The notes beneath the pieces were generated by a model. It was not told the DNA's origin, searched no databases, and saw only the letters and a list, made by a program, of their open reading frames with translations. The position numbers and the translations under genes are program-made. A DNA stretch of 64,000 bases from Paenibacillus tundrae. Its GTDB lineage: Bacteria; Bacillota; Bacilli; Paenibacillales; Paenibacillaceae. The stretch covers positions 2,046,001 through 2,110,000 of the forward strand of contig NZ_CP145605.1 of NCBI RefSeq assembly GCF_036884255.1, written 5' to 3'. Below, one piece after another: positions 25,312 through 42,882 of this stretch. Every line of letters starts with the position of its first letter. Within the stretch, counting starts at the first letter, position 1.

Positions 25312-25336
25312 AGCTATCCCCAAAAATATTATTATG

Positions 25337-25345: not shown

Positions 25346-25379
25346 TTATGAAGCTAACATGTCTAATTGGGGGAATTAT

Positions 25380-26255: not shown

Positions 26256-26277
26256 AAATAGGGGCTCTGTTTTATTT
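26243..26277 (+). terminator. Strong terminator overlapping moron stop codon
   Basis: ACAGAGTTCCTA pairs with TAGGGGCTCTGT around a GAAA tetraloop, a 12-base stem with two G-U pairs, followed by TTTATTTT. The stop codon of the moron lies inside the hairpin. It would block moron transcription from entering the tail genes and, unless bypassed, could also limit late read-through. Confidence 0.85.
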
Positions 26278-26288
26278 TGGGAGGAATT

Positions 26289-26702
26289 ATGATGAGCGAC
26301 AAATTACAAAAATATCTTGCAGCTGGTACGGCTGACACTAAGCCAGAACAAATTGAAGTGGATCTGGATGGAGAGAAGTGGTCTGTTCGTCGTTTGACCA
26401 CGATGGATCTGCGCCGTGCCTATGAAGCGGCATACAACGATGATGGTACACCAAAAGGGAATTTTAATGACATCGATGCGATGATTGTTAAAGCTACTGA
26501 ACACGATTTTGATTGGAAGAACGTTAAACTGCTGACCGCATACAATTGTGTGACTAAAAACGAATTGCCACCGCGTATGTTGAACAATCCGGATCATTAT
26601 GCAAAGTTGTCCAAAGCCGTTCGGAATTTCAAAGAGACGAAGGAAGAGCTGCTTAGAGAAGCAAAAAACTTATCCGGCGAGACGGAGACGCAAGCTGGGT
26701 AG
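26289..26702 (+). CDS. Tail assembly chaperone (XkdN-like), upstream frame
   Basis: A 137-residue chaperone from ATG 26289 behind GGGAGGAATT. Key parts are LQKYLAAGTADTKPEQIEVDLDG (first 30 residues) and VRRLTTMDLRRAYEAAY near 38-54, then a helical body. It matches the XkdN-type chaperones that coat the tape measure during tail building. A slippery A AAA AAC heptamer lies 33 bases before its stop, and a second frame continues beyond it, as in lambda G/GT. This is the in-frame product, expected to be the abundant one. Confidence 0.85.
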   Translation: MMSDKLQKYLAAGTADTKPEQIEVDLDGEKWSVRRLTTMDLRRAYEAAYNDDGTPKGNFNDIDAMIVKATEHDFDWKNVKLLTAYNCVTKNELPPRMLNNPDHYAKLSKAVRNFKETKEELLREAKNLSGETETQAG

Positions 26703-26839
26703 CATCCTTTTGGATCAACCAGAAAAAGTTACCGTCCGAAGTCTTGCCGTATGAAGTAAATAAGAACAGGCAGTACCTATTTTGCCTAGCCGCATCGATG
26801 CTGGCTGAGGAAGAACTGAAGAAGCTTAACAAAAAGTAG
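26289..26839 (+). CDS. Tail assembly chaperone -1 frameshift fusion (GT-type)
   Basis: Predicted minor product: ribosomes slip by -1 at the heptamer A AAA AAC (26663-26669) and continue in the other frame to TAG 26837-26839, passing the normal stop at 26700. The added part is about 57 residues, including SWVASFWINQKKLPSEVLPYEV and a helical LAEEELKKLNKK end. The -1 frame has no stop from the slip site onward. In many phages such G-GT pairs are needed for the right tail length; the conserved layout is chaperone, slip, then tape measure, as here. Confidence 0.75.
26663..26669 (+). promoter_or_regulatory. Slippery heptamer A AAA AAC for -1 frameshift
   Basis: The heptamer fits X XXY YYZ in the chaperone frame (GCA AAA AAC), 33 bases before the zero-frame stop. 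The downstream -1 frame is open for about 170 bases until just before the tape measure gene. A stimulatory downstream structure was not clearly seen. Confidence 0.7.
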
Positions 26840-26860
26840 GCCGGGAAGGGGGTGCATACT

Positions 26861-29800: not shown

Positions 29801-30175
29801 GAGGGGCCGGCTAGTAAGTCAGACAAATGGGCACCGAACTTTGTCTCGATGTTTGCTGATGGTTTGCGTCCGGATTCGATTAAAGAACGGATGAACCTGA
29901 TTGCTGGGACGATGCGTGACGGTGTGGATGGCATCGAAGGGGCAAGTTTGTCCGGAAGTCCTATTCCGGTTCGAACAACGCCATTATCTGCAGAAGCATC
30001 CACTGGTAGCAAGTCAGTAACGATCGGCAACATTACGATTGACTTTGGACAACTCGCTAAAGGCATTACTAATTTTGCAGAGTTTGCTCAAATGCTGAAA
30101 AGTCCTGAAGGACGGGCATTACTTCGTGATGTTTTGGGAGAAGAGTTATACAAAGCATTGGAGACAGGGGGTTAA
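26861..30175 (+). CDS. Tail tape measure protein
   Basis: A protein of about 1104 residues that sets tail length, from ATG 26861 (GGGAAGGGGG eight bases before); GTG 26852 is possible. The N-terminal 100 residues are Arg-rich helices. Hydrophobic segments occur near 125-150 and 490-510 (VINSVLGVLAGVLVLKGAVGM), with a glycine-zipper stretch near 710-740 (GGTIGGLLGSLVGPLG). The middle (about 570-640) is a low-complexity Gly, Asn, Lys and Thr linker. Near 970 SYLGFASPTDEGPASKSDKW is a common tape-measure end motif. Length suggests a tail of roughly 150 nm by the usual rule. Confidence 0.93.
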   Translation: MSTASRITVPIEARDLVSGTLRRMQSGLRNTQDDVGGLRRAADRMGQEFSSSIHRAGESARDLGAQVGRAADETRQLGRAVVGDLFRRARSSAEDFRRSVSRADAEVRGVSDAHVRLHADDQISPLIDNISAKITGLAALGGGLILGGGMSDAMFGGVGDYYQETARLAPYLSSQQRSEVLATNDHLYAQGLISDKATGARELSTLVPMVQDKSKVSEAFAATTKLQAVIPDSGSEEMQRAVTQTAKNFKESYSQVADSIAHAYMSVGDPQKDLADTFWEYSPYFASSGVDSAQMSNFLSSTVKEGAFNFDKPGDFFKEVFGVKALNVDDMSSYFEARGAGKKEAARQAAAFTDDINSGDKQKAQGAIAALLADLASQNRNELKQSLTTLGSATGEDNADAILKTYGVAFEKAPDMTGTTDKMVSQQQAANPMTEYIQAQNAMKSQLQDIGGNIMQASVPAMKEFNSLLTDNKVQIEALGSGVATGISNIVSFYHEFSGVINSVLGVLAGVLVLKGAVGMAKGTKQLYDDVTGAGRSVWNRLPGTRKFGGGGGSSPISGADLVSSMNVNASRVYVTGNMGGGNGGGNSRNRRRNRRNGGSDGSNSRTNKPSKTITKTDIIGDKKTKPQTSTKTKGKDVSSTTTKPSKTNPKLGSDGLLTTGLKGTGGAAKGVLKGLGVLGTIANVGFSAYDMYGVAKEQGWKEAISTQGGSTVGSLAGGTIGGLLGSLVGPLGTAAGAAVGSWAGEKLGSWADSSGVTRDIVDGVSNLTSSIKDWMGFGSKDEPKPTPSKPELPKESFITTTASTTKEAEQKIKETMENVVSNVQQSGLKQGLTDAMNESGVTQAADHIKDKLVSMFRGSESKEAESNIKSVGTAAKETEQKAKDLGVTSKSAAQDVVSSNSKAGQSFSSVSSAAQSAVSQVHRDLMSLSSVSSQGSSWGSNLISMMVSGMRSQFPSLTSVVSNAAKIMQSYLGFASPTDEGPASKSDKWAPNFVSMFADGLRPDSIKERMNLIAGTMRDGVDGIEGASLSGSPIPVRTTPLSAEASTGSKSVTIGNITIDFGQLAKGITNFAEFAQMLKSPEGRALLRDVLGEELYKALETGG

Positions 30176-30178
30176 CTC

Positions 30179-30844
30179 ATGCTTGCAATGTCTCAGGGAT
30201 CAACCAGATTAACCTTCCCTATCACGCCAGCCGAGGTTCAAATCACAACAGGAAATGATGTGGATTCATTCAACGTTATAACTGGACAAGAGCGAACAGG
30301 GAAACCCACTGCCAAGTTGCAGCGGGTTTCTTTTTCGGCTATCTTACCGCGTGAATGGCGTGAAATATGGGAGACGGATAAGAAGCAAACCGTTACCTAC
30401 AAACGTCCTGAAACAACATGGCAACTGTTGGAGAAGTGGAAACCCAAGCCTGTTGTGCTGAATTTTGAGGAGTTGTTCAGCACAACGATGTTGATCGAGA
30501 ACATGGAGATCGTTTATAAAGACGGGCAAGGCAACATTCACATGACAATGACTTTGGTCGAGTATAAGCCAGTCAAAATTATTTCATATTCCAACACAAA
30601 ACAGCTCCTTAAGCCTGGTGTGATTATTACGAAAGCCAGCAAGAGCCGTCCGAATACCACAAGTAAAAGCGGTAAAAAAGACGACAAGAAGAAGACTACG
30701 ACCAAGAAGAAAGTCGCAGCAAAGAAGAAGTCCACGGCAGCCGCCAAGGATGCTGCAGATAATGCGACAGGTTCATTTGACTACACAGGTCGCAAAAACA
30801 ATATTGCAGCCGCAATGAAAAAAACGAGCTATATACAAAGTTAA
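30179..30844 (+). CDS. Baseplate/tail protein XkdP-like with Lys-rich tail
   Basis: A 221-residue protein four bases after the tape measure. Residues 1-130 have the XkdP-type beginning (TRLTFPITPAEVQITTGND, RVSFSAILPREW and TTMLIENMEIVYKDGQGN). Instead of the LysM peptidoglycan-binding end of PBSX XkdP, the last 80 residues are Lys/Thr/Ala-rich (KKTTTKKKVAAKKK). It lies between tape measure and hub genes, as XkdP does, and probably joins the tail tip. Confidence 0.8.
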   Translation: MLAMSQGSTRLTFPITPAEVQITTGNDVDSFNVITGQERTGKPTAKLQRVSFSAILPREWREIWETDKKQTVTYKRPETTWQLLEKWKPKPVVLNFEELFSTTMLIENMEIVYKDGQGNIHMTMTLVEYKPVKIISYSNTKQLLKPGVIITKASKSRPNTTSKSGKKDDKKKTTTKKKVAAKKKSTAAAKDAADNATGSFDYTGRKNNIAAAMKKTSYIQS

Positions 30845-30857
30845 TAGGAGGGCAAAC

Positions 30858-31838
30858 ATGGACAAATTTGCAGTCATATACGGTAAACAGGATGCCAGGT
30901 CTGCCCTCACTCCTGCAATAACGGACATTTCATGGTCATCCCAACGAGATGAGATTGCGCGCAGTATGACAGTTCGGCTGCGCGATATCCCAACAGTTAG
31001 TGTAGCTGGTATGCTGATGTGCTTTTCGCATAAGGTGGGTAAATCCCTTCTTCATCATAAGAACCAGTTTTTCCACGGACCCATCATTGACTACGAAAAA
31101 GATGAATTTACAGGCGCTTGGGAGATCAAGGCCAGGGAGATTGGATGGTACCTTGCGAAGAACAAAGGTGTGCGACCATACCTGAAGGGCGAAGCGGGGG
31201 CTGAATTGCAGAAGTACATCAAAACAACTGGAGTTGATTTTCGTTGTCCTGCCCTCGGGTTTAACCTGGATGAACGATACGGGACGATGGCACACTCTGA
31301 GGTGATCCTGGATGTGTTGCAAAAGGCATATGAGCGTAGTGGCTACCGGTACCATGTCGATGCGATCCGGACGGAGCAACATTTTTATCTGCAAGTCGTG
31401 AGGGAAGGCACCAATGAAAAGGTGCCTATTTTTGTACCTGAACAGATGGAAGCGAGCAGCGCAGGGTACAACATCGAGGACACATACACGGTTGTCACTG
31501 CTCAAAAATATAAGGATGACAAGCTATCTGTATCAGTTACAAAAACGGATGCCAGCGCCTTGAAAACCTTTGGTCGAATGGAAGAAATCATCGAAGTAGA
31601 AGAGGAAGAGAATCCGACCACTGTTGCTACTCAGCGACTAAAAGCAATGGCTAAGCCTAAGCAACTCAAGCGAATCACGGTACGTCATGAGGATTATACA
31701 TTGGCTGGCTTACGGGCTGGTTGGCTCGTGCTGATCAAGACAACTGTGGTTACCAAATGGATCGTAGAGAGTGCCGACACGAGCTGGAGCAACGGCATAT
31801 TTACGGTCAAGATGGTCTTGGAACGGAGGGAAGCATAA
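30858..31838 (+). CDS. Baseplate hub protein (XkdQ-like)
   Basis: A 326-residue protein after ATAGGAGGGCAAAC. It starts with DKFAVIYGKQDARSALTPAITDISWSS, has MTVRLRDIP and an IKAREIGWYLAKNKG stretch, and ends in a TLAGLRAGWLVLIKTTVVTKW strand region. This matches XkdQ/YqbQ hub proteins, relatives of late-control protein D that cap the tube. Its TAA stop overlaps the start of the next gene. Confidence 0.88.
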   Translation: MDKFAVIYGKQDARSALTPAITDISWSSQRDEIARSMTVRLRDIPTVSVAGMLMCFSHKVGKSLLHHKNQFFHGPIIDYEKDEFTGAWEIKAREIGWYLAKNKGVRPYLKGEAGAELQKYIKTTGVDFRCPALGFNLDERYGTMAHSEVILDVLQKAYERSGYRYHVDAIRTEQHFYLQVVREGTNEKVPIFVPEQMEASSAGYNIEDTYTVVTAQKYKDDKLSVSVTKTDASALKTFGRMEEIIEVEEEENPTTVATQRLKAMAKPKQLKRITVRHEDYTLAGLRAGWLVLIKTTVVTKWIVESADTSWSNGIFTVKMVLERREA

Positions 31839-32161
31839 TGATGGGTGATGCGATTCAACTGATGAAAGAAAAGCTGAAAGGTCACATTGATGCGCGGGAT
31901 ACAGAACGTGCGACCCTTGTTAGCTGGCCTAATCCGAAGATTGAGATTGATGGAGATCCGCATCCCTATGAATCAGGAAGTATTGTTATTGCAGATTATT
32001 TACAGGAACGTGAGATTGAGATCACTTTTGAGGTCGTGGAGCCAGAGCCAGCGATTTTGAAAGGTAAACTCCTGATCCCTAGCCCGTTGGAGGTGGGAGA
32101 TAGGCTGCTTGTATCACGCATGACGGGTCAGCGTTATTACGTGTTGGGAAAGGAGCGTTAG
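31838..32161 (+). CDS. XkdR-like baseplate protein (DUF2577)
   Basis: A 107-residue protein starting at ATG 31838 or 31841, just behind GGAACGGAGGG, overlapping the hub stop. It carries MKEKLKGHIDARDTERATLVSWPNPKIEIDG and ends in GDRLLVSRMTGQRYYVLGKE, the OB-fold-like layout of DUF2577. This family sits next to XkdQ in PBSX and skin prophages. The frame is open upstream, but that part overlaps the hub gene. Confidence 0.85.
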   Translation: MMGDAIQLMKEKLKGHIDARDTERATLVSWPNPKIEIDGDPHPYESGSIVIADYLQEREIEITFEVVEPEPAILKGKLLIPSPLEVGDRLLVSRMTGQRYYVLGKER

Positions 32162-32164
32162 CAC

Positions 32165-32608
32165 ATGAATGAAGACGAAACGTTATTCCCTGAAATGGAT
32201 CTCGAAGAAGTAGACGTCACCGATCTAGTCGATAACATTCCTTCTGAAACCAAATGGACATACAAAATGGATTTTCGCAATCGCCGAGCTGTCCTTGATG
32301 AGTATGGGCGTCCTGTTCGCACGAAAAGTTATGAGGAATTTCTTGTTGAAACGGGCATGAAAATCCTATGCACAGAACGCTTTCAATATGTCGTCTATGG
32401 AGAAGATGTAGGCGTTGAAAAATCAGAGTGGCCAGGATGGGAAGACAATGAGATTATCCGTGATATTGAAGAAGCACTAACGGCTCATCCTGAAATAGAA
32501 CAAGCTGAGGTAATATCAATGACTCGTGTTGACCGTGGGATGGATCTGACAATTAAAATTATGGGCTTAGTTGGCACGGCTGAATTGAGTGAGGTGATTG
32601 ATGTATGA
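32165..32608 (+). CDS. XkdS-like baseplate wedge protein (DUF2634)
   Basis: A 147-residue protein with GGAAAGGAGCGTTAGC upstream. LFPEMDLEEVDVTDL is a typical beginning of DUF2634. WTYKMDFRNRRAVLDEYGRPVRTKSYEEFLVETGMKI (quoted in pieces: WTYKMDFRNR and EEFLVETGMKI) and DIEEALTAHPEIEQAE follow the T4 gp25-type wedge fold. It overlaps the J-like gene by four bases. Confidence 0.87.
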   Translation: MNEDETLFPEMDLEEVDVTDLVDNIPSETKWTYKMDFRNRRAVLDEYGRPVRTKSYEEFLVETGMKILCTERFQYVVYGEDVGVEKSEWPGWEDNEIIRDIEEALTAHPEIEQAEVISMTRVDRGMDLTIKIMGLVGTAELSEVIDV

Positions 32609-33429
32609 GCTTGATTATTAACGATCTGCCAAAGTTTCCTTCGATTCCGATTTTGGAGGAAACGCCTGATATGATCTATCAGCGATGGGTTAACCGTGTT
32701 ATTGCCTTGGCGAATGAACGAGGAGATCCACCGCCACCTGTAGGCGAAGGTGAATTCTTTTACGACATGTGGTACCCAATCGCACAAGAAGTAGCCGAAC
32801 AACAGGAGTTATGGGGCTATGGCGTACTACAAGCTACGCCGATCTGGGCAGATGATGAGTTTCTGGACGCACACGGCTGGGCTGACGGAATAGTGCGTAA
32901 AGATGGTGAATCTAATGATGATTATCGACTACGGATTCTTGAACGTGCATTTACCGAAGAGGGCAGCGGCCGCCGAACAGATTACGAGCGCTGGGCAAAG
33001 GAGATCCAAGGCGTTGGAGCTGCTGTCGCAAGGGAAAAAGAGCGACATGACAACTCCATTGACCTATATCTAACTGACATGAACGGCCAGCCGATCACGC
33101 TAGAATTTGCTGAGCAAGTCAAAGCGCTAATGTGGGATGAATATCGCATTGCCGGTCATGATCTGGCTGTGCATCCAGCTCCGGTGTTTGTAGTTACGGT
33201 AAAAGCGACATTGGAAACGACGGAAGAACTGCCTAAACTGGCTGAGCTGATCCGTCAGCGTGTAGTGGCATACGCTAATGGTCGCAATAAGTTGTTGTAC
33301 AACTACATTGCAGCTCTATTGCTTGTGCCTGGTGTCGAGAATTACAGTGACTTCACGATTAATGATGAACTTGAGGATGTAGACGTGCCTGCTGTGTCGT
33401 TGCTGCAGGTAGAGGTGGTGTTATCATGA
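32605..33429 (+). CDS. Baseplate J-like protein (XkdT-like), short form
   Basis: A 274-residue baseplate wedge arm protein. It has a helical start, IWADDEFLDAHGWADGIVRK (about 80-99), DDYRLRILERAFTEEGSGRRTDYERWAKEIQGVGAA (split: DYRLRILERAFTEEG and TDYERWAKEIQGVGAA) and C-terminal strands. PBSX XkdT is about 348 residues as I remember; the missing part is the beta insertion usually found after the EFLD segment. The simplified form may be a variant of this phage group rather than a deletion, since no frame damage is visible. Confidence 0.85.
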   Translation: MSLIINDLPKFPSIPILEETPDMIYQRWVNRVIALANERGDPPPPVGEGEFFYDMWYPIAQEVAEQQELWGYGVLQATPIWADDEFLDAHGWADGIVRKDGESNDDYRLRILERAFTEEGSGRRTDYERWAKEIQGVGAAVAREKERHDNSIDLYLTDMNGQPITLEFAEQVKALMWDEYRIAGHDLAVHPAPVFVVTVKATLETTEELPKLAELIRQRVVAYANGRNKLLYNYIAALLLVPGVENYSDFTINDELEDVDVPAVSLLQVEVVLS

Positions 33430-34079
33430 TCCCTGTTCGATACCGTGAGGTCTTGCCGCCTTACTGGTACGAAAACGAGGTAGCAGTCTGGCATTTTGGA
33501 GTAATGGAGGAAGAGATAGATTTACGAGAACAGAAGATGAATGACCTCGTAAATCAGTTTCTATTGCAAAGGGCTACCTGGGGGCTGGGTATTAAGGAAT
33601 GGATTTACTTCCGTGCGGAACAAGTTGGCACATTGGCTAACCGCCGCGAAGCAATTCGCAGGAAACGGTTAGCGAAGAAGCCGTTCAAGTTACCTATTCT
33701 CCGACAGATCGGCTTACAGTATGGCAAGCTCTTACAGGTGAGAGAAGAGTTTCAGGCTAAAGAGATTCACTTTGAATATGACTCAAAAGCTCCAATCAAT
33801 TTAGCGGGGCTATTTGGTGATTTCGAATATATCCGTCCTGTTCACATTAACCGTGCCGTTCCTGTGATTAAGACGACTACTCCAGCGATTACGCTCAGCG
33901 GGAATGTATATTGTCATGCCGTAGATTTTCCGATATGCGGTTTAGAAATGCCCCTTGAATTGGGGAGAAGTGGGGTTCTGGCTTCTCAAAGTATTACAAT
34001 CGCGCCGACTGCGTCGCATACTCGGATTGACAGTCCAATTACAGGTTTTGAAATACCCATGCAAGGAGGAGTGCCTTAA
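33426..34079 (+). CDS. XkdU-like baseplate/tail protein
   Basis: A 217-residue protein overlapping the J-like gene. It begins RYREVLPPYWYENEVAVWHF, has helices through about residue 110 and then beta-rich turns with repeated ITLSGN / ITIAPT / ITGFEIP segments. The position after baseplate J corresponds to XkdU (DUF2313-type) proteins that link baseplate and fibre. The C-terminal beta repeats may form the fibre anchor. Confidence 0.75.
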   Translation: MIPVRYREVLPPYWYENEVAVWHFGVMEEEIDLREQKMNDLVNQFLLQRATWGLGIKEWIYFRAEQVGTLANRREAIRRKRLAKKPFKLPILRQIGLQYGKLLQVREEFQAKEIHFEYDSKAPINLAGLFGDFEYIRPVHINRAVPVIKTTTPAITLSGNVYCHAVDFPICGLEMPLELGRSGVLASQSITIAPTASHTRIDSPITGFEIPMQGGVP

Positions 34080-34399
34080 TGGCAGATATTATTCAATCGC
34101 TATTGCTTGATTACTTGGTAACGGATGCTGATTCGCATTTTGACCATGCTCTAGTCAATGTAGGAGGTGAACTAGTCCAATACCCCATCTATAACACGGT
34201 TATTTCTGGACGAACAATACGCAAATACGTCTATTTAAGTGACACAGAAGTAGTAGGTAAACAGATTCTTGGTGCATCCCTTATGGATGGGCAGGGTCGA
34301 ACACTTGCTAACCAAGCTCTTAATGTTATTAAGAACGATCGGGGTTTTCTGATCGGGTTTGAACTCTCGATTAAGTTGGAGGTGAAGGCGATTGTATAA
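34079..34399 (+). CDS. Small tail-fibre-linked protein
   Basis: A 106-residue protein overlapping its neighbours by one base and eight bases. It is mostly beta (HALVNVGGELVQYPIYNTVISGRTIRKYVYL) with an ALMDGQGR-like turn. It probably bridges baseplate and fibre or assists fibre folding, judged only by location between XkdU and the fibre gene. No family recognised. Confidence 0.65.
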   Translation: MADIIQSLLLDYLVTDADSHFDHALVNVGGELVQYPIYNTVISGRTIRKYVYLSDTEVVGKQILGASLMDGQGRTLANQALNVIKNDRGFLIGFELSIKLEVKAIV

Positions 34400-37319
34400 C
34401 AAACAGGAGTGGAAAGATGAGATACCCGATCTGACTAAGCCAATTATGGATTCATCTACAGGAAAACAAAAAACGGATCGGCAGACTGGTCGGCCTCTCT
34501 TTGAACTTGTGCAGGAAGGAACTCGTATAACCTCATCTAGATTAAATACAATGGAAGACGGCATCGAAGCTGCCCATGGCTTAGTTGAGATTTTGATTAA
34601 GGAAATGGGTGGGAACTTTGTTGCAACTTCTAATGGAATTAGAGGTTTGGCTTGCACTACGCAAGGTTTGAAAGTGACATGGACAGCTGGTGTTGCTTAT
34701 GTAAATGGGTTGCGATATGAGGTGGCTGCGGGTGAAATCGATTTAGCGCCAACGAAAGGTCAGTATGTGTATGTAGACACTGATGGCGTGGTTAAAGTAG
34801 CCACAAATGTAAAAGTCGTTCACAAGGGCTTAGTTATTTTTTATGCTTCGACAGATACCAGCGGTGTAATTTCTTCTGAAGATCGTCGAGTTAATCTCAA
34901 TATGGAAGAGCTTCGGAAACGGATTGAAAGTGTTGAGAATGACATAATCACAAAAACAAATACAGCGGAAAGAAATGCGAAAACATACACAGATGAGCGG
35001 GTAGGCGTGCTTACTGACCTCAAAACGAATGCAAAAGGAAATGCTGTCCTAGCTATTAACGAGCTTTTTCAATCTGTCAGTAACGGGAAAGAATTACTAG
35101 CCAATGCGATTACTGACATGGGTCAACCGACATTGGCTACTGATTCTTACGAGGTAATGTCTGAGCACATTGGTATGCTGACTACCAATACCTTCATGAA
35201 AGAGTTCGGCATCACTACTGCTGGGTATGATCTACCTACAACTCTGACTCAGGTGATGAAGGTCAGCTTCAGATATGTAGGTCTCCTCAACTCATTTGCT
35301 CCGTACATTCTGTACTCGAACAATGGCTACCTATGGACACCTGCTACAATTACTGTCCCTGAAGGAGTATTACTTAATTCAGCTAGGCAAATGGCCTACG
35401 GCAGTGACTTGTTCATTGTCTTGGCTAACGGCAAAAACTTACTTCGCTCAGGGAATGGGGTTGACTGGGAATTAGTAACGCAACCTACGAGCTCTGCTAC
35501 TAGCTGGACTAACATTGTATATGCTGGCGGTATGTTCTGTGTAACCGATGGCAAGTCAACTATGCTCTCTGTTAATGGCTACACCTGGACTGTATATGAG
35601 AACTCTGTCGCCGCCCTGAATACTGGAGGTAATATTCCTAATAACCTTACAGGAGGAGAATCAAGCCACGCCAAGTTTATCATGTCCTACCCAGCGGACG
35701 TAAACAGCACCAACATCATTTACTCCAATGACGGAGTTGCCTGGAATCATATTGTGACTTCTTCAGGACTGCTGCCTCCTGTAGTAGGAGCATTTACCTT
35801 CGGATCTAGAGGATGGGTTGCGCTAGGCGTTGAAGGGGTAGCTACTTCTGTAGACGGGGCTCTCTGGGAAGTAACTACTTTTACAGGCAGTCAGATCAAC
35901 AGTGTTCCGAGTGGCTGTTTAGCTTACTTCGGTGGGCAATATGTGGTAGCTGGTCAGTCTAGGAACGCATCTAATTTTACCCGTGCCGCCATCTTCACAT
36001 CTAGAGATGGCAATGTGTGGGAGCGTGTCTGGATGTCAGCTGATAACTTCACTCTATCGTCTTTTCGTAGCTTGGCATATGACGAAGAGTCGGCCATCTT
36101 CTACTCGACAACCACACTACTGACGGTATACACCGGTAAGGTGAATCCCGGTAGCATCTTCGATGATGCCAGAGTACGCGAGCGAAACTTCCGTACCAGC
36201 CTTGCACAAGCCATCTTTAAGCAAACTGTAGGTACTTCCACAGTTGCTGCGCCTGAGTTGATGCTGGAGAATATTGCACGAATTCCAAGGAACGTAGCTG
36301 CTACGGATTGGGTGAATCGACAGACCATCGCGCCAGCTGTTTTAGTTAAAGCTGTATGTATGGTTAAGGCTTCCTTTGTTGGCGTAACCCAACTCGCCAG
36401 CGGGGCTACTTCGGGCAATGCGATTCGATCTCAGAATGGCGGGACAAGCTTCGCAACAGTCAGCACGCCTAAAGTAGATGCTGTCGATATTGCTCACAAC
36501 AATGCAGGTATGATCGTAGCGGTTGGTCAAGCATCGTCTGGAGTAGTTGCGTCCGCTATGTATTCCACCAACGTAGGACTTTCGTGGACTGCTGTATCGA
36601 CTGCGCAATTGTCAGCTAGCTTGGACTTCGGCATTATCCAATGGACGGGTACTAAGTTCATCGCCATCACCAGATCGGCAGCGGTATATTCTTCTACAGA
36701 TGGTACTACGTGGTCTTCTGAGCCTGTTTGGATGGGTCTTAGAACAGGTACGATTATCGACTCTGTGATTACTCCACAGGGTATGTACATCATGACTAAC
36801 TACAACATCCTGTACACCGCGGACTATGTTACGTATGAGACCATCTTGACTTGTAACAACTCATGCCTGTCTGCTTTAGCCTATGGCAACGGCGTCTTAG
36901 TAGTTACAACTACTGCTGTTACTGTCATCAACAGGCCAGACGGTACGCAGGATATGTCCAAACGAGGAGAAGTACTAACGAGTACAGATGGTGGCGTAAC
37001 CTGGCAGTTCAATATATTAGGCTCCAACAATGCTGGCTGGGGTGGAGGTAGTGCTAAGCAGTTCACGGACGTGACCTTCAACAGAGGACTATTTGTAGCT
37101 ACGTTGAATAGCTCGTCTAGTCCGAATATTGCTGTATCACACGATGGCGTTAACTGGATTGGGCGAAGCAAAGCAAGTGGAGCCAGTGCAACCAACTACA
37201 GTAGAGTCACGGGCTTCGGGGGAGTGTTCATCGCATTCCCAGGGGGATCAGCTAACAGTACTTGGATGACATCCGGCACTATCGACCAAGAACTATACAA
37301 CGCGGGACGAGGCTATTAA
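34392..37319 (+). CDS. Tail fibre/receptor-binding protein with two beta-propeller-like repeats
   Basis: A 975-residue protein, TTG start at 34392 behind GGAGGTGAAGGCGA. Residues 1-75 look like a baseplate-attachment part. Residues 80-170 are beta-rich with a coiled region. From about 290 a BNR/sialidase-like repeat recurs, with an Asp-Gly-x-x-Trp turn: NGVDWE, NGYTWT, DGVAWN, DGALWE, DGNVWE, then, after a helical spacer near 600-640, NVGLSW, DGTTWS, DGGVTW, DGVNWI. This suggests two propellers. They would bind host surface glycans. Codon choice differs from neighbours in using many TCT and ACT codons. Confidence 0.85.
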   Translation: MYNKQEWKDEIPDLTKPIMDSSTGKQKTDRQTGRPLFELVQEGTRITSSRLNTMEDGIEAAHGLVEILIKEMGGNFVATSNGIRGLACTTQGLKVTWTAGVAYVNGLRYEVAAGEIDLAPTKGQYVYVDTDGVVKVATNVKVVHKGLVIFYASTDTSGVISSEDRRVNLNMEELRKRIESVENDIITKTNTAERNAKTYTDERVGVLTDLKTNAKGNAVLAINELFQSVSNGKELLANAITDMGQPTLATDSYEVMSEHIGMLTTNTFMKEFGITTAGYDLPTTLTQVMKVSFRYVGLLNSFAPYILYSNNGYLWTPATITVPEGVLLNSARQMAYGSDLFIVLANGKNLLRSGNGVDWELVTQPTSSATSWTNIVYAGGMFCVTDGKSTMLSVNGYTWTVYENSVAALNTGGNIPNNLTGGESSHAKFIMSYPADVNSTNIIYSNDGVAWNHIVTSSGLLPPVVGAFTFGSRGWVALGVEGVATSVDGALWEVTTFTGSQINSVPSGCLAYFGGQYVVAGQSRNASNFTRAAIFTSRDGNVWERVWMSADNFTLSSFRSLAYDEESAIFYSTTTLLTVYTGKVNPGSIFDDARVRERNFRTSLAQAIFKQTVGTSTVAAPELMLENIARIPRNVAATDWVNRQTIAPAVLVKAVCMVKASFVGVTQLASGATSGNAIRSQNGGTSFATVSTPKVDAVDIAHNNAGMIVAVGQASSGVVASAMYSTNVGLSWTAVSTAQLSASLDFGIIQWTGTKFIAITRSAAVYSSTDGTTWSSEPVWMGLRTGTIIDSVITPQGMYIMTNYNILYTADYVTYETILTCNNSCLSALAYGNGVLVVTTTAVTVINRPDGTQDMSKRGEVLTSTDGGVTWQFNILGSNNAGWGGGSAKQFTDVTFNRGLFVATLNSSSSPNIAVSHDGVNWIGRSKASGASATNYSRVTGFGGVFIAFPGGSANSTWMTSGTIDQELYNAGRGY

Positions 37320-37367
37320 TTAGCCCAACTGAGATAAAATTGATTTTAATGCCATTCGGCATTATTG

Positions 37368-37408
37368 ATCCTCTCTGAATTCAGGGAGGATTCTTTATAT
37401 TATTTTGA
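37368..37408 (+). terminator. Terminator after tail fibre
   Basis: ATCCTCTCTG and CAGGGAGGAT (one G-U pair) around AATT form a ten-base stem followed by TCTTTATATTATTTT. It lies between fibre and holin genes and may lower lysis-gene expression relative to structural genes. Confidence 0.75.
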
Positions 37409-37421
37409 TGGGGGATATGAA

Positions 37422-37841
37422 ATGGAGAAAGTGGGGAAATGGGCTTTAGCCGCAGGTAGCTGGCTGGTGTCATACTTATTTGGAGGTTGGTCTGGAGTGC
37501 TGGGAGTTTTGTTAGTTTTCGTTATGCTAGATTATATAACCGGGATTGCTGCTGCTGCGCATACTGGACAGCTTAAAAGTAAAATTGGCCTTATCGGGAT
37601 TGCCCGTAAGGTCTTTGTTTTTGCCATGGTGGCAGTTGGGCATTTGGTTGATGGTATTTTAGGTGACGGTCATTTATTTCGGGATACGGTCGCTTTCTTT
37701 TATATTGCGAACGAGCTGTTGTCTATTACCGAAAATGGCGGGAGACTAGGAGCGCCAGTTCCTGCTGTGATCAAACAAGCAATTGAAGTCTTGAAGGGTA
37801 AAGGTGGCAATAACGATAAAGGAGCTGGTACGAATGCTTAA
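37422..37841 (+). CDS. Phage holin (phage_holin_4 / toxin-secretion type)
   Basis: A 139-residue membrane protein from ATG 37422 (GATGGGGGATATGAA upstream). Three or four hydrophobic segments are visible: LAAGSWLVSYLFGG, VLGVLLVFVMLDYITGI, KVFVFAMVAVGHLVDGIL and AFFYIANELLSI. The motif MLDYITGIAAA followed by SKIGLIGIARK is characteristic of this holin family. It makes the membrane lesion that releases the amidase. It overlaps the amidase gene by 8 bases. Confidence 0.93.
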   Translation: MEKVGKWALAAGSWLVSYLFGGWSGVLGVLLVFVMLDYITGIAAAAHTGQLKSKIGLIGIARKVFVFAMVAVGHLVDGILGDGHLFRDTVAFFYIANELLSITENGGRLGAPVPAVIKQAIEVLKGKGGNNDKGAGTNA

Positions 37842-38541
37842 AGTATGGATTGATGCAGGACATGGTGGCAAGGATCCGGGAGCAGTAGCCAATGGAATCC
37901 AAGAGAAGGATATCGCCCTGAAGGTATCACTCGGCATTAAGGAACGATTGGAAGAAACATATGAGGATGTACAAGTTCTGCTCTCAAGATCCACGGATGT
38001 ATTTTTAGAACTTCGTGATCGGACAGCTAAGGCAAACGCAGCTGGTGCTGACGTCCTGGTTTCTATTCATTGCAACGCAGGTGGTGGCAAGGGAGGATTT
38101 GAGTCTTTCCGTTATACTTCGGCTTCACAAAATAGTATCAAGCTTCAGGAGACATTGCACAAGGCGATTATGTCCAAGCTCGGTGGAATTGATCGTGGGC
38201 AGAAGTCGAAGAATCTGCACATGGTGCGTGAATCCAGGATGCCAGCAGTCCTGACAGAGAACTTGTTTGTTGATGTGGTAGCAGACGCAGATTGCCTTAA
38301 ACAAGCAAGTGTAATCAAAACGATTATAGAGGGTCACGTCCTAGGCATTGCAGCATACTTAGGACTTACTAGCAAGTTAATGGAAGTTCAACCTGTGAAA
38401 CCAAGAGATATTAATATAGTTAGTAAATGGGCTGAAACCGCGTGGAGGGACATGTCAGAAAGAGGATACTTCGATGGTCAACGTCCGGGGTCACCCATTA
38501 CACGAGAGGAAGTTGCCGTTTTACTTAGTAGAATTTTATAA
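37834..38541 (+). CDS. Endolysin, N-acetylmuramoyl-L-alanine amidase (Amidase_3)
   Basis: A 235-residue lysis enzyme from ATG 37834 (AAAGGAG ten bases before); the frame is open upstream. Zinc and catalytic residues are H10 (DAGHGG), E24 (QEKD), H79 (VSIHCNAG) and E142 (LTENLFVD). The C-terminal 45 residues (KWAETAWRDMSERGYFDGQRPGSPITREEVAVLL in parts) resemble an S-layer-homology-like cell wall-binding segment. There is no signal peptide, so it needs the upstream holin. Confidence 0.94.
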   Translation: MLKVWIDAGHGGKDPGAVANGIQEKDIALKVSLGIKERLEETYEDVQVLLSRSTDVFLELRDRTAKANAAGADVLVSIHCNAGGGKGGFESFRYTSASQNSIKLQETLHKAIMSKLGGIDRGQKSKNLHMVRESRMPAVLTENLFVDVVADADCLKQASVIKTIIEGHVLGIAAYLGLTSKLMEVQPVKPRDINIVSKWAETAWRDMSERGYFDGQRPGSPITREEVAVLLSRIL

Positions 38542-38572
38542 AAAAATTCAAGGAAGTTTTTTTATAAAAAGA

Positions 38573-38600
38573 GAGGCGCCAGAGAATAAGCGCCTCTTCA
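38573..38600. terminator. Bidirectional terminator
   Basis: GAGGCGC pairs with GCGCCTC around CAGAGAATAA, followed by TTC on the plus side and by AAA-rich sequence on the other. It separates the amidase gene from the convergent secreted-protein gene. Confidence 0.75.
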
Positions 38601-38610
38601 TACATGGAGA

Positions 38611-39345
38611 TTAAGGAGTTTCAGTCAAGAATGAATAACCATCAACCAATCCACGAACAGTATAGGTAGCATATGCTACACTAGCGACATAGTGATCTTC
38701 AAAAACATTTTTATTGTAGTTTGCATTTTTCGCAGAATTTGTATAATCCTTTGAGAAAACTAATCCTATATTTGTACCACCTTCCCCAAAAAGACCAAAA
38801 GCTCTAACCTGCACGACACTCCCAATACTACTATGGTATTCTTGATTAGTGTCACGAATTACAAAGTTTCCAGTTAAGAAGTTATTTACGAATCCAATAT
38901 CATGCGTTCCATGTCCAGTGAGCTCTACTTTGTTAAAATTCCCCTTGAAGTACCAGCTGGCATCACTTACTTGTGGCGTTGAAGATGATTGAACCGATTG
39001 AGTTGAGAAGTTTTGGTTTACTGGTATTGCATGAAGCTTGACAAAGTTTGCATCTTCTTCAGAGAAAATTTCACCGATCTCATATTTGTCAGCAATCTCA
39101 GTGAGCTTAGCATTGATTTCGTTCGTTGTCATTTCATTTGAAAAGGTATTAATATTTGTTATAGGTATGGCGTTTTCTTTTACGGAATTCGCTTCTTCTT
39201 GAGAGAGTATTTCTCCTGCACCATAATTCGCTTCGATTTCACTTATAGGACTTGGGTTAACGCTTTGAGCATTAGCTGCCATAGGCAACAGTAAAGTAAA
39301 TGCTCCAGCAGTTAATAATGTTTGGATAGTCTTTTTGTTCAACAT
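38611..39345 (-). CDS. Secreted protein with duplicated EEAN motif, lysogenic-conversion candidate
   Basis: A 244-residue protein with a signal peptide (residues 1-27, AxA cut near ANAQS). Residues 31-57 and 78-104 are a repeat of about 27-29 residues: SEIEANYGAGEILSQEEAN and TEIADKYEIGEIFSEEDAN, each followed by a conserved AIP triplet (NAIPI/HAIPV). The C-terminal half (about 120-244) is beta-rich. Its AT content, opposite strand and position after the lysis genes make it a moron expressed by the lysogen. AAAGGAGATAACTACAAA precedes the start. Confidence 0.7.
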   Translation of the reverse strand: MLNKKTIQTLLTAGAFTLLLPMAANAQSVNPSPISEIEANYGAGEILSQEEANSVKENAIPITNINTFSNEMTTNEINAKLTEIADKYEIGEIFSEEDANFVKLHAIPVNQNFSTQSVQSSSTPQVSDASWYFKGNFNKVELTGHGTHDIGFVNNFLTGNFVIRDTNQEYHSSIGSVVQVRAFGLFGEGGTNIGLVFSKDYTNSAKNANYNKNVFEDHYVASVAYATYTVRGLVDGYSFLTETP

Positions 39346-39375
39346 TTTGTAGTTATCTCCTTTAGGTTGAATATT

Positions 39376-39392
39376 ATGTTAAAGTTTAACAT
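39376..39392. promoter_or_regulatory. 17-bp palindrome upstream of secreted gene
   Basis: ATGTTAAAGTTTAACAT is a perfect dyad about a single central base, 30 bases before the start of the minus-strand secreted gene and close to a CATAAT-like -10. It is a likely operator or DNA-bending site. Confidence 0.5.
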
Positions 39393-39535
39393 TAAAATTA
39401 ATTTACCATATATGGGTGTTTTAGGTATATAGGACTTTGGGATTAATTGTATTTTATTAGTTGCTAAAGGTTGTTTTTCAACGTGAGATGGTATAAAGTT
39501 GGATGTAATGTTACAGGATGAGGAGGAAATGCTGT

Positions 39536-39646
39536 ATGCAACATTCATTTAGCATACCAGGAATAATAATATTGTTACTGGGATTAGGCCTCGTAGTATT
39601 TATTGTAAGAAGTATAGTGAATAAGATTTGGTATTCAAAAAAATAA
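39536..39646 (+). CDS. 36-residue single-TM peptide
   Basis: ATG 39536 is preceded by GAGGAGGAAATGCTGT. The peptide is one hydrophobic helix (IPGIIILLLGLGLVVFIV) with a basic end (RSIVNKIWYSKK). It is divergent from the secreted protein and ends before a strong hairpin terminator. Small membrane peptides such as this may be holin-like, toxin-like or regulatory; too little information to choose. Confidence 0.5.
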   Translation: MQHSFSIPGIIILLLGLGLVVFIVRSIVNKIWYSKK

Positions 39647-39688
39647 TATTTCAACTATAATTAATAGAAAGTTAGATAACCGTTACGA

Positions 39689-39736
39689 AACGAAACAAAA
39701 AAGGACACTGATGACAGTGTCCTTTTTTGTTTCGTT
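39689..39736. terminator. Perfect 22-bp hairpin terminator
   Basis: A perfect stem of 22 base pairs (39689-39710 with 39715-39736) with loop ATGA. GGACACTG and CAGTGTCC are the GC part, flanked by A and T runs on both sides. It works in both directions and closes the transcripts of the small membrane gene and the hicAB operon. Confidence 0.85.
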
Positions 39737-39852
39737 GTTCTTTTACTGAAAATTCTCTAAAAGTGTCCATATTTATCATTATAAAAAATGATAATATGCC
39801 TGATGGAACTATCTGAAGTCCTCTTCTTAAAAGCGAACGGGTAGACAGCTGA

Positions 39853-40257
39853 TTATTTAATACCCAATGCATCCTTAACTGAGTTCTGTAGAAGCTGAGA
39901 GAAGTTCAATTCGGCATCTTTGCCGGCATCTCTCAACCACTGTGGGACAGTGCAATTAACTGTAACTGATTTATTCGCTGCAGCATCACGATACGGAGGG
40001 AGGAAAACCTCAACAAATACAATTCGGTCGCTCGGATCGTTCAACTCAATAGCATCAAGTTCAGAAGGTGAAGGAATCTCAGCATTTTCATGTTCCATTT
40101 CAATAATGCAATCAATCAACATGCTTTTAGCATCTTTAATGGCAGTTTGAACGTCAGGTGCAAGAACTGCTGTTCCAGGCACGTCAGGGAAATAAAGACC
40201 AATGCCACCATCTTCACCTTTTTCAACTACAGCAGGGAAAATAAATGTGTTTACCAA
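39853..40257 (-). CDS. hicB: HicB antitoxin
   Basis: A 134-residue antitoxin. The N-terminal HicB-like fold runs from TFIFPAVVEKGEDGGIGLYFPDVPGTAVLAPDVQTAIKDA (split: GIGLYFPDVPGTAV) to about 65. The C-terminal region (VTVNCTVPQWLRDAGKDAELNFSQLLQNSVKDAL, in parts) looks like a ribbon-helix-helix DNA-binding element. It would neutralise HicA and repress its own promoter. It is the downstream gene on the minus strand with 111 bases between them, containing a dyad operator. Confidence 0.92.
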   Translation of the reverse strand: MVNTFIFPAVVEKGEDGGIGLYFPDVPGTAVLAPDVQTAIKDAKSMLIDCIIEMEHENAEIPSPSELDAIELNDPSDRIVFVEVFLPPYRDAAANKSVTVNCTVPQWLRDAGKDAELNFSQLLQNSVKDALGIK

Positions 40258-40294
40258 TTTATCTCGCTCCTTAAATTCATTTTATTTTACACCT

Positions 40295-40320
40295 GTCGTG
40301 TTATCTATACATAACATGAC
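40295..40320. promoter_or_regulatory. Dyad operator upstream of hicB
   Basis: GTCGTGTTAT and ATAACATGAC form a ten-base dyad with one mismatch around CTATAC. It lies 38 bases before the hicB start, so hicB may have its own repressed promoter, as described for E. coli hicAB. Confidence 0.5.
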
Positions 40321-40368
40321 GAACCGGTCTATGCCGGAGGCAAGCAATGGCTTTAGAGAAGGGAGGGG

Positions 40369-40584
40369 TTAAAAGATAACCCCTGATGTCTTCTCGATGC
40401 TTTTGAGTGTGCCAATCGGTATCGTCTGACCACTGTTGTGGAAACTGATGATAGCAAATCTGGATGGATCATCTTTATGTATCCATTTACTATGACTTCC
40501 GCCGCCAGTGTGTGAAGGGGATTTTATAAATCCTTCTTCTTTCAACCGTTTGAGCACTTCTCGTACCGTTCGCTGTTTCGGCAT
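40369..40584 (-). CDS. hicA: HicA mRNA interferase toxin
   Basis: A 71-residue toxin with AAAGGAGGTAAGCG before ATG 40584. It has the double-stranded-RNA-binding-like HicA fold: EVLKRLKEEGF, then GGGSHSKWIHKDD with the catalytic His (about residue 30), and ISFHNSGQTIPIGTLKSIEK. It cleaves mRNA when not bound by HicB. The order toxin then antitoxin is normal for hicAB. It may stabilise the prophage or block other phages. Confidence 0.92.
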   Translation of the reverse strand: MPKQRTVREVLKRLKEEGFIKSPSHTGGGSHSKWIHKDDPSRFAIISFHNSGQTIPIGTLKSIEKTSGVIF

Positions 40585-40608
40585 CGCTTACCTCCTTTCT
40601 ATAGTATA

Positions 40609-40653
40609 ATTATAACACGTGTTTTTATGCGTGTCAAATAATTACGCGCGTAA
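40609..40653 (-). promoter_or_regulatory. hicA promoter with overlapping palindromes
   Basis: On the minus strand, TTGACA (40632-40637) and TATAAT (40609-40614) have perfect consensus with a 17-base spacer. The spacer contains ACACGTGT (40615-40622), and TTACGCGCGTAA lies at 40642-40653 just upstream. Related ATGCGTG words occur twice. These are likely operators for HicB, giving autoregulation. Confidence 0.8.
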
Positions 40654-40717
40654 ATATGCGTGTTTTTATTTTGGTTGAGAAAAAGAGCAGGAGGGATAAC
40701 CTCTCTGCTCTTTATTC

Positions 40718-41386
40718 CTAACTTACCTCTTTGATCAAACCCTCGTTATTATTCCGCACATTCCCTACTGCAGAATCGACCTTGTAGGCACTCATTCCAG
40801 CAGCGTCATACGGTCTGAGTAGCCCCAGAATGCTTTCCTTATCCGAATCCTTTTTCAACCATTCCGCTTCATCCTGTGACCGAAGAATGACTGGCATTCG
40901 ATCGTGGATGTCTGACATAAGGCTATTAGGTTCTGTAGTGATGATTGTGCAAGTCGACAGCTTTCTTCCGTCCTGATCGATCCATGTATCATATAGACCA
41001 GCAAGAGAGAAGATTGAATTGTCCTTCATTAGAATCCGCATTGGTTGCTTATTCGATCCTTCTTTCTTCCACTCGTAGAATCCATTACAAGGCACAATAC
41101 ATCTTTTAGAACTAATCAGTCGCTTGAAAGCTGGTTTCTCATCTAACGTCTCAGCTCGGGCGTTGATCATCTTACTCCCGATTTTGTCATCCTTTGCCCA
41201 AGAAGGTACAAGACCCCAACGTAGTGAGCCCAATCGATTCCCTTTACTACTTCCAATGATCGTCGGAATATACTGCATTGGCGCAGCGTTAAAGTTTGGT
41301 TTGTAATCAAATCCTTCTGCAATTGACGCCATATAACGTTCCATAATGTCTTCTAGTGGATCTATTATAGTAAATCTTCCGCACAT
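40718..41386 (-). CDS. SRAP-domain protein (YedK/HMCES family)
   Basis: A 222-residue protein from ATG 41386 (AAAGGAGG eight bases upstream), so that Cys2 (MCGRF) becomes the N-terminal catalytic residue that crosslinks to abasic sites in single-stranded DNA. Other family features are NAAPMQYIPTI (about 36), RWGLVPSWAKD (about 60), NARAETLDEKPAFK (about 80), CIVPCNGFYEWKK (about 100) and MTPVI-like RMPVILRSQDE (about 165). Many phages and hosts carry it. Here it lies inside the prophage right arm. Confidence 0.93.
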   Translation of the reverse strand: MCGRFTIIDPLEDIMERYMASIAEGFDYKPNFNAAPMQYIPTIIGSSKGNRLGSLRWGLVPSWAKDDKIGSKMINARAETLDEKPAFKRLISSKRCIVPCNGFYEWKKEGSNKQPMRILMKDNSIFSLAGLYDTWIDQDGRKLSTCTIITTEPNSLMSDIHDRMPVILRSQDEAEWLKKDSDKESILGLLRPYDAAGMSAYKVDSAVGNVRNNNEGLIKEVS

Positions 41387-41392
41387 ACTCAC

Positions 41393-41601
41393 TGCCTCCT
41401 TTGAGACGATATACTATGTAATTTTACTCAAAATATTGAGATTAGAAACGGGTAATATGTGGAGTTAGTTATCCATAAAAAAATAAAAATGCAATAAATT
41501 AGATGATATTTATAGATCAGCAAGTTTATGTTTAGACATATTGTGATTTATTCTGTAATCTTCAAACAGATATACATTAAGCACAAAAAAGGGGTAGTAA
41601 G
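41393..41601. other. AT-rich intergenic region
   Basis: About 200 AT-rich bases between divergent SRAP and secreted-protein genes. TTTAGACATATTGTGATTTATTCTG contains no clear consensus promoter. AAAAAGGGGTAG near the right end is the ribosome site of the next gene. Confidence 0.4.
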
Positions 41602-42348
41602 ATGAAAAAGAAAATTAGCTTTATACTTAGTTTAGCACTATTTGTTTCAATCCTAATCCCACTTGCTTCAGTAAGTGCATACATGGGTGGACTAGCGGAT
41701 GGAAAAGTAATGATTTTAACCGACGGTAATCCATATCATCCTGCGCAAGACAGCACTTATTTAATTACTGATAGTGATGAAACTACATATTATACTATTC
41801 CTGTCGGTAAAGCGATTTCAGTCAATCTAGGTTCAAAGACAAATTTTAATTACATTCGTATTTTGGCAGACTCAAACCAATTAGCAATAAATACGTATGC
41901 TAACTCCCATGTGGCTGGAAAAAGAGTAGATGCATTATATAGTGGTGCTCCTGATGGTTCTTTAAAAGATTTAAGTATCTCAGGAATACAATACGTACAA
42001 TTGAAAAATAATTCGAATGTAGATATTAACCTTTACGAGTTTGATGTATTTACAACAGACCCTACAGTTCCAGAACCACAACCACAACCTGAGCCTGAGC
42101 CTCAACCTCAGCCAGATAGTAACAGGGCTATTATGGTCATAACAATGACAACTGGCTTGGAAAAGGAATATGACTTAAGCATGCAAGAAGTTAACAGCTT
42201 CATTGACTGGTATGAAGCGAAACAAGCGGGAAGTGGAAGGGCGTCATATGCAATTGACAAGCATGACAATAACAAAGGTCCGTTCAAGAGTCGGAAGGAT
42301 TATATCTTGTTTGATCGGGTACTGACATTTGAGGTAAGTGAATACTAA
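41602..42348 (+). CDS. Secreted prophage protein with Pro/Glu linker
   Basis: A 248-residue protein with a signal peptide (residues 1-27, cut near SVSAY). Residues 30-155 are beta-rich. A Pro-Gln-Glu linker (PEPQPQPEPEPQ) covers about 157-173. The C-terminal domain (about 176-248) has TTGLEKEYDLSMQEVNSFIDWYEAK and a KGPFKSRKDYILFDRVLTFEV end, which I associate with proteins near Paenibacillus prophages. It is the last prophage gene before the attachment junction and may modify the lysogen surface. Confidence 0.7.
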   Translation: MKKKISFILSLALFVSILIPLASVSAYMGGLADGKVMILTDGNPYHPAQDSTYLITDSDETTYYTIPVGKAISVNLGSKTNFNYIRILADSNQLAINTYANSHVAGKRVDALYSGAPDGSLKDLSISGIQYVQLKNNSNVDINLYEFDVFTTDPTVPEPQPQPEPEPQPQPDSNRAIMVITMTTGLEKEYDLSMQEVNSFIDWYEAKQAGSGRASYAIDKHDNNKGPFKSRKDYILFDRVLTFEVSEY

Positions 42349-42357
42349 AAGAGTTGG

Positions 42358-42390
42358 GGCTTCATCGGTTCAATACTGATGAAGTCTTTT
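42358..42390 (+). terminator. Terminator after secreted protein
   Basis: CTTCATC and GATGAAG with an eleven-base loop, followed by TCTTTTAA. It lies about 105 bases before the predicted right attachment site, and so would insulate the prophage from cotJC. Confidence 0.65.
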
Positions 42391-42469
42391 AATGTGGTTT
42401 TCCAAGGATGCCATTAGTCTTATCTCGATGCTAAAGTCATAAAAATAATGAATTGGCATAGCGATATGT

Positions 42470-42515
42470 TAATTTATGAACGATAACTATAGTGCACGGA
42501 AGAATTTGCTCATCT
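42470..42515. other. Predicted right prophage attachment junction (attR)
   Basis: Up to about 42493 the sequence is AT-rich and non-coding; from about 42494 (GCACGGAAGAATTTGC) it reads as cotJC codon by codon. The junction is therefore within 42490-42500. The left junction, with the matching 5' part of cotJC and a recombinase gene, should lie upstream of the window. The exact core cannot be set without it. Confidence 0.65.
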
Positions 42516-42882
42516 CGAAATGATTGCAACCATGATCTACAAGCTTACCAAAGATGTAACGGTAGAGCAGTTGGAGCAGGCAGGCTTAGATGCACATTAC
42601 GTCAATCATGATCGAGCGTTGTTCTATAATAATGCTGCAGGCGTGCCTTTCACGGCTACGTATATCCAAGCTAAAGGTGATCCGATTGCCGATCTCTATG
42701 AGGATATTGCAGCCGAGGAGAAGGCACGAGCTACTTATCAATGGTTAATCGATATGACCGATGATGTTGATCTACAAGATAGTCTGAAGTTTCTGCGTGA
42801 ACGGGAAATTGTGCATTCTCTGCGATTCCGCGAAGCTGTGGAGATCCTGAAGGATGATCGGGATACGAAGAAGATATTTTAG
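42494..42882 (+). pseudogene. cotJC: 3' two thirds of cotJC, interrupted by prophage
   Basis: A frame open from about 42496 with EEFAHLEMIATMIYKL, TATYIQAKGDPIADLYEDIAAEEKARATYQW and FLREREIVHS motifs of CotJC, a spore-coat manganese-catalase-family protein. The complete protein is about 189 residues as I remember it; the 128 residues here correspond to position 62 to the end with no gap, stop or frameshift. The break falls just before the EExxH metal-binding segment. The intact state suggests recent interruption or selection to restore the gene by excision. ATG 42520 could only give a useless fragment. Confidence 0.88.

Follow-up and report, generated by a model that had tools for sequence, protein, structure and literature searches.

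A prophage splits the spore-coat gene cotJC of Paenibacillus tundrae inside its EExxH motif and may be removed again during sporulation

The spore-coat gene cotJC of Paenibacillus tundrae is split by a prophage of 53,490 bp (the core-to-core distance between the cotJC halves) that carries its own large serine recombinase (LSR), and joining the two flanks restores the entire reading frame. Judged from both junctions, it is well supported that the element can be excised precisely from cotJC, and by analogy with known elements of spore formers we consider it rather probable that this excision would be regulated and take place in the sporulating mother cell. The window, i.e. the whole stretch of 64,000 nucleotides that was analysed, is G000:C1:2046001-2110000, where G000 is its genome, a single contig of 6.53 Mb. 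Positions 1..42501 of the window belong to the element, and the upstream part of about 11 kb (G000:C1:2035012-2046000) holds attL, the LSR gene, the small gene e12 and a CI-like repressor gene.

At the right end of the prophage, the 3' half of cotJC (codons 64-189; 42502..42882, +, with the coding part at 42502-42879 and the stop codon at 42880-42882, +) starts at the crossover dinucleotide GA. It is undamaged and in frame, as the first-pass annotation of the window had noticed. An ORF start at 42520 was rejected as the gene start, for it is an internal ATG of this half. The attR site (42467..42535) consists of a phage arm, the core ACGGA-A-GA-AT (42496-42505) and finally the host arm. The first-pass annotation had also expected the 5' part of cotJC upstream of the window, together with cotJA and cotJB and a recombinase, and all of these turned up there: the 5' half is located at G000:C1:2034823-2035013 behind cotJA and cotJB (named from position and sequence, and from relatives beside cotJC in other genomes), a profile search of the genome gave an Mn_catalase match to it at G000:C1:2034826-2035023, and the LSR gene lies within the element, about 1.5 kb from the left junction. 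The attL core is at G000:C1:2035006, and the core common to attL and attR is ACGGA(G/A)GAAT, in which Glu is encoded by either base of the G/A mismatch.

Codon 64 begins with the crossover GA and encodes the second Glu of E-E-F-A-H. The insertion therefore interrupts the EExxH motif itself, which we take to be the metal-binding motif of CotJC. The break, first described as lying just before this motif, is inside it, at the second Glu codon. The position of the crossover was deduced from the attP symmetry and the shared core. In the inferred attP of G000 the best dyad symmetry is centred on the core GA, giving a palindromic attP with a two-base crossover, and the dyad centre falls on the same GA in the inferred attP sites of 13 of 13 junctions at this insertion site (site A) from 11 genomes. 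Intact attP is present on a contig of G067 and on L104. E-E-x-x-H is retained at the end of the truncated 5' product, with the phage arm encoding the residues after the second Glu (left junctions G000_5, G014_5, G054_5, G189_5 and G136_5), which is probably a by-product of the similarity between attP and attB.

The joined flanks of G000 encode a stop-free CotJC of 189 aa, so the restoration of the frame by precise excision, proposed at the outset, holds for the sequence. An empty site exists in the same species, where G034 has an intact cotJC whose protein is 100% identical to the rejoined one, and the joined flanks match G034 in one alignment of 2,500 bp spanning the junction (94.8%). The two cotJC genes differ at 24 nucleotides, all of them synonymous, which fits a functional gene and does not give the date of the insertion. 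Purifying selection was considered as a test of regulated excision and rejected, since selection preceding the insertion explains a synonymous-only pattern equally well. Likewise, the lack of decay pointed out in the first-pass annotation is confirmed for both halves, but it is weak as an argument by itself, since a prophage of recent origin would also look undecayed. A second full-length CotJC, which had been named as evidence against a removable element, was not found in the G000 genome by the Mn_catalase profile search; the four other matches are frames of 290-317 aa with 26-36% identity to CotJC, one of which has an internal TAG.

The prophage encodes a virion gene set, identified in a scan of ten element proteins: the terminase large subunit (15472..16788, +; PHROG 2, E 3.1e-50), portal protein (16789..18279, +; PHROG 12, E 1.3e-35), a virion structural or capsid-type protein (20433..21377, +; PHROG 1623, E 5.1e-75), contractile tail sheath (23515..24867, +; PHROG 279, E 1.6e-76), a tape-measure or tail-lysin type protein (26861..30175, +; PHROGs 1047 and 973), baseplate and tail genes (32671..34079, +; PHROGs 6 and 521) and an endolysin (37834..38541, +; PHROG 2742, E 1.4e-50). 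A DnaB-type helicase gene is also present. Among isolated phages, the best kinship of the capsid-type protein is 35%, to Lactococcus phages, and one tail protein has no match. The genes nearest to attR (window 41602-42348) and attL (L007 9293-10306) look secreted by eye and have a common C-terminal "GLEKEYDLS" segment, being otherwise different; they gave no Pfam match and weak PHROG matches.

The LSR (G000:C1:2036502-2038115, -; 537 aa) contains Resolvase, Recombinase and Zn-ribbon domains, and its nearest solved relative by sequence is the SPbeta integrase YokA/SprA (PDB 9dxh, E 6.1e-52). According to the accessible text of PMC4191935, SprA and SprB excise SPbeta from spsM during sporulation.

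To see how far such insertions extend, we surveyed 75 genomes of the genus and 295 of the family (evenly drawn from a larger group), 44 of which overlap, making 326 different genomes; candidates were recognised by a weak best E-value in the per-genome table and each was then verified. An element interrupts cotJC in at least 21 of the 326 Paenibacillaceae genomes, and three insertion sites can be distinguished: codon 64 (site A; 12 genomes, including one hit twice), about codon 75 (site B; 2) and about codon 122 (site C; 7 and the one hit twice). Each site has its own LSR family, whose gene lies no more than about 3.5 kb from a cotJC half and mostly directly adjoins it; identity to the G000 LSR is 21-28% for the LSRs of sites B and C. 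Broken LSR genes occur in G054 and G232. The halves rejoin to an open frame of 189 codons in all split genomes tested (20 of 20; G232 of the 21 was left out, and G318 entered with the best of three 3' copies, two being dropped), and those of G142, joined at the shared core, contain no stop. The two halves lie on one contig in 12 of the 21 genomes, across the two ends of a contig in one and on different contigs in 8. Four further genomes with damaged or gapped cotJC and no clear element (G301, G264, G325 and G211) are outside the 21. When ORFs were read by eye, the site-B elements had genes of replication type, and phage structural genes were not evident.

Two genomes show more complicated arrangements. 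G318 (L064, L065 and L066, copies 3a, 3b and 3c) has three site-A 3' halves of cotJC, one of them decayed and two about 21 kb apart on the same contig, which would fit stacked prophages or prophages that took the half with them. In G232 (L069, L071, L072 and L070), cotJC is interrupted at both site A and site C; its middle piece has decayed, the LSR is broken, and a nearly full-length paralogue with 73% identity is found elsewhere in the genome.

For a wider search, an alignment of ten LSRs was used as query over genome contigs, and the best 80 named loci were kept, some of them from genomes that are also in the Paenibacillaceae set, which makes the counts overlap. Among these best 80 loci, 61 have a cotJC half at most 3 kb from the LSR, split at about codon 64. 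They come from Paenibacillus and many Clostridia and belong to the same LSR clade with the same target codon, and the junction core recurs across genera. Of 66 cotJC halves, 2 have a stop or frame break, 2 (L155 and L174) break off at codon 136, which would fit a second insertion, and 1 (L142) is without the first 27 codons. Four halves were flagged for stops, of which L141 and L157 look damaged, while the flags of L115 and L137 lie outside the coding half; contig ends truncate the halves of L146 and L161. A cotJC half is present at 15 of 80 LSR loci in the viral set, and many of these loci end soon after the LSR.

Five loci represent compact elements of about 3.5-7 kb, in which both cotJC halves are found in one short stretch. 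Their hosts are C. carboxidivorans P7, Alkaliphilus transvaalensis and three MAGs. No phage structural genes were evident in the five from their ORF lists and from a Pfam scan of seven proteins, and the e12 profile matched in three (L115, L142 and L145). The element of C. carboxidivorans P7, about 3.5 kb long, comprises the LSR, e12 and two small genes. These two lie between e12 and the LSR (L115 4474-5718), have no Pfam match and by eye encode a perhaps TIR-like protein and a small membrane protein, possibly a defence pair. Other cargo includes AgrB and GGDEF/HD proteins (L150 1703-5439) and, by eye, a response regulator with a sensor-type protein (L145). Besides, the cotJC 3' half ends at codon 136 after similar sequence in L155 (3875-4099), L174 (3434-3649), L188 (7594-7821) and L226 (7837-8055), and a gene that looks recombinase-like by eye ends beside cotJC codon 28 in L142 (3149-3262), which hints at further insertion sites at about codons 28 and 136.

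Relatives of this LSR also split sigK. Two partial sigK matches each were found in G006, G053, G128 and G158 (on different contigs in G006 and G158); the full-length matches in these four genomes fall below the sigK cut-off and are presumably of sigE type, whereas G000 has a match above it. The sigK-splitting LSRs of G006, G053 and G128, 45-46% identical to the G000 LSR, are accompanied by e12, and e12 had no match at the sigK-splitting LSR locus of G158. In a tree of 67 LSRs, the cotJC target is clustered (8 changes versus 17.4 when shuffled, with 0 of 500 shuffles as low), and a single Paenibacillaceae branch contains all four LSRs that split sigK, along with LSRs from other loci (3 changes, a count as low being reached in 34 of 500 shuffles). 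These other loci are not all sporulation genes. For example, relatives at L094, L095, L099, L100 and L101 adjoin other genes, such as an alpha/beta hydrolase-like gene by eye (G052) and a D-Ala-D-Ala carboxypeptidase gene (G156); those of G269 and G311 adjoin whole-looking YheC/D-type ATP-grasp genes, and the site in G300 is ambiguous. yheC/D was withdrawn as a further split target, as the neighbouring ATP-grasp gene is essentially whole, and the yheCD label in the tree denotes the neighbourhood only.

The small gene e12 (G000:C1:2041106-2041345, +; 79 aa) accompanies the LSR in 12 of 12 site-A Paenibacillaceae elements and, besides the LSR and the host cotJ genes, it is the one G000 gene found in each of them; G000, G014, G054, G041, G299, G032 and G214 were compared as whole elements and the remaining ones over end pieces, and the end pieces of G189, G305, G136 and G318 have e12 with no other G000 phage gene found. 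The e12 profile matched in 24 of 295 family genomes, 22 of which have an LSR relative (<=1e-40), and at E <= 0.01 it matched at 51 of the best 80 genome LSR loci and 64 of 80 viral LSR loci. No sequence similarity to SprB was detected, searches of Pfam, NCBIfam and PHROG gave no match, and against PDB phmmer had no match and a profile search nothing credible; a single-sequence structure model was poor (pLDDT 58). From its co-conservation with the LSR, we propose e12 as a candidate recombination directionality factor of the LSR. All 7 site-C elements share another small protein, for which the same role may be proposed on like grounds, and there the co-conservation is less specific because a repressor-like gene is also common to all 7.

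A close relative of the phage exists unintegrated in the assembly of G067, as a contig of 55,237 bp with a 68-bp terminal direct repeat, as expected from a circle. It represents a sister phage (LSR 81%, e12 84%) whose intact attP has the predicted form; blastn found no cotJC match on it, and cotJC is intact elsewhere in that genome. The contig does not give the timing or cause of this state. In a scan of 93 regions for mother-cell promoter motifs, weak enrichment was found upstream of e12 (strict sigE 0 versus 0.1; loose sigE 5 versus 1.4 +- 1.0; sigK-like 4 versus 0.8 +- 0.8; CATAnnnT 19 versus 13.9 +- 3.3) and upstream of the LSR (in the same order, 0 versus 0.1, 3 versus 2.2, 4 versus 0.8 and 27 versus 16.3 +- 3.3). 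The best single motif is of sigE/sigK type before e12 in C. carboxidivorans, and a sigE-like motif precedes the G000 LSR; neither is decisive. Among four species pairs picked from a list for their similar LSRs, dS of the LSR is below that of cotJC in three (0.03 versus 0.51, 0.44 versus 1.94 and 0.74 versus 1.52), which points to later transfer of the LSR; in the Caproiciproducens pair (L155/L160) the values match (0.79 versus 0.86), where the L155 cotJC match stops at codon 136.

Taken together, we propose that a temperate contractile-tailed phage integrates at the second Glu codon of the cotJC EExxH motif, for which its LSR alone would suffice with attB in cotJC. For excision, LSR and e12 would recombine attL with attR at the shared GA, yielding exact CotJC and a circular phage, and lytic induction would free the phage through the same reaction. 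During sporulation, excision would also be triggered in the terminal mother cell, as with SPbeta in spsM and skin in sigK; the coat protein would then be made from a rearranged, dying chromosome, the spore would retain the prophage, and the host would benefit or be spared. The action of LSR and e12 in the mother cell is suggested by SPbeta and skin, by the sigK-splitting relatives and by the compact elements, and the recurrence of cotJC interruption across many spore formers suggests a removable switch like skin. The first-pass annotation's idea of a skin-type regulated element is thereby partly supported: its structural predictions agree with the sequence, and it gains weight from the recurrence at three sites, the sigK-splitting LSR and e12 pairs, the compact elements and the circle-like sister phage with attP, but the promoter motifs are only weakly enriched and in three of four pairs the LSR looks younger than the host gene.

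The main alternative is ordinary lysogeny, which we regard as possible, if on the doubtful side. Here cotJC would be a conserved, dispensable attB, and lysogens would be without CotJC until the phage is induced or cured. cotJC is controlled by sigE and dispensable in B. subtilis, where its loss is mild, as this explanation would have it. In the accessible text of PMC11222575, cotCB and cotD mutants of C. difficile are without significant coat defect. The virion genes, the signs of horizontal LSR movement and the finding of no strong sporulation promoter in the scan also favour simple lysogeny, and 10 of 295 family genomes are without a CotJC-type match at 1e-15, others having paralogue-level matches only. 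Against it, relatives of LSR and e12 are inserted in sigK, which must be freed by excision to act in late sporulation, as is established for skin; the compact elements of Clostridia, without evident structural genes, keep the LSR and the cotJC halves; and one small gene has become the target of three LSR families. It is very improbable that element and gene are a decaying remnant that has lost recombination. Such cases exist, for cotJC is decayed both in G301, which has stops and a short insert, and in G232, with its broken LSR, double insertion and decayed middle piece, but the G000 LSR is stop-free with symmetric att arms and clean halves, and every difference from the intact gene of the same species is synonymous. 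Finally, an assembly artefact or misjoin, for which the halves on different contigs in 8 of 21 genomes could speak and nothing was found in G000, is scarcely credible given the single G000 contig, the 12 genomes with both halves on one contig and one more spanning contig ends, and a junction core that recurs across genera in independent assemblies.

Regulated excision from cotJC would also enter a broader reading, about which we are evenly divided, in which cotJC would be a "safe harbour" where developmental DNA rearrangement takes place throughout the Bacillota: three or more LSR families, related only distantly, would have settled independently at three codons, one old lineage of LSR plus e12 would extend across Bacilli and Clostridia and also into sigK, and e12 and the site-C protein would found new families of directionality factors. 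This lineage would have travelled as phages time and again, and in some cases as reduced elements retained solely as a mother-cell switch. If excision during sporulation is true, removable interruptions of spore genes would be common, convergent and old, rather than curiosities of a few Bacillus and Clostridium strains, and cotJC would be a second widespread target beside sigK. It would also supply dozens of natural LSR/attB/attP sets, candidate directionality-factor families and pared-down versions for side-by-side testing, and bear on whether phages choose mother-cell genes since the damage is undone in a cell dying anyway.

In the open-access literature we found no report of an element inside cotJC, and subscription reviews may mention one. 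Several known systems are comparable. In C. difficile, phi027 likewise adjoins a CotJC-type gene, the cotJC homologue cotG, but in the accessible texts of PMC11222575 and PMC12122855 cotG (678 bp) is described as a bacterial gene downstream of attR and not split. Paenibacillus larvae phage phiIBB_Pl23, compared for LSR and e12, has an LSR with 52.6% identity and an e12 homologue with 40%. The elements gin (gerE, B. cereus) and yin (yabG, C. botulinum) also interrupt spore genes and carry serine recombinases, and gin resembles the compact cotJC elements, which are likewise without evident phage structural genes; the interrupted gene is different, and excision data exist for gin and yin (accessible texts of PMC5595907 and PMC10747680). 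Skin in sigK (SpoIVCA in B. subtilis; CD1231/CD1234 in C. difficile) is an LSR-borne element splitting a mother-cell gene as well, and LSR and e12 relatives of the cotJC element themselves split sigK (G006, G053 and G128), whereas the cotJC element has virion genes and interrupts a gene for a coat protein. Similar in design, too, is SPbeta in spsM of B. subtilis, a complete prophage in a mother-cell sporulation gene with a related LSR and a small partner protein, its directionality factor SprB, and exact restoration of the gene is expected for cotJC too; the cotJC element differs in its target, in e12, which is not detectably related to SprB, and in that its excision during sporulation is proposed here by analogy.
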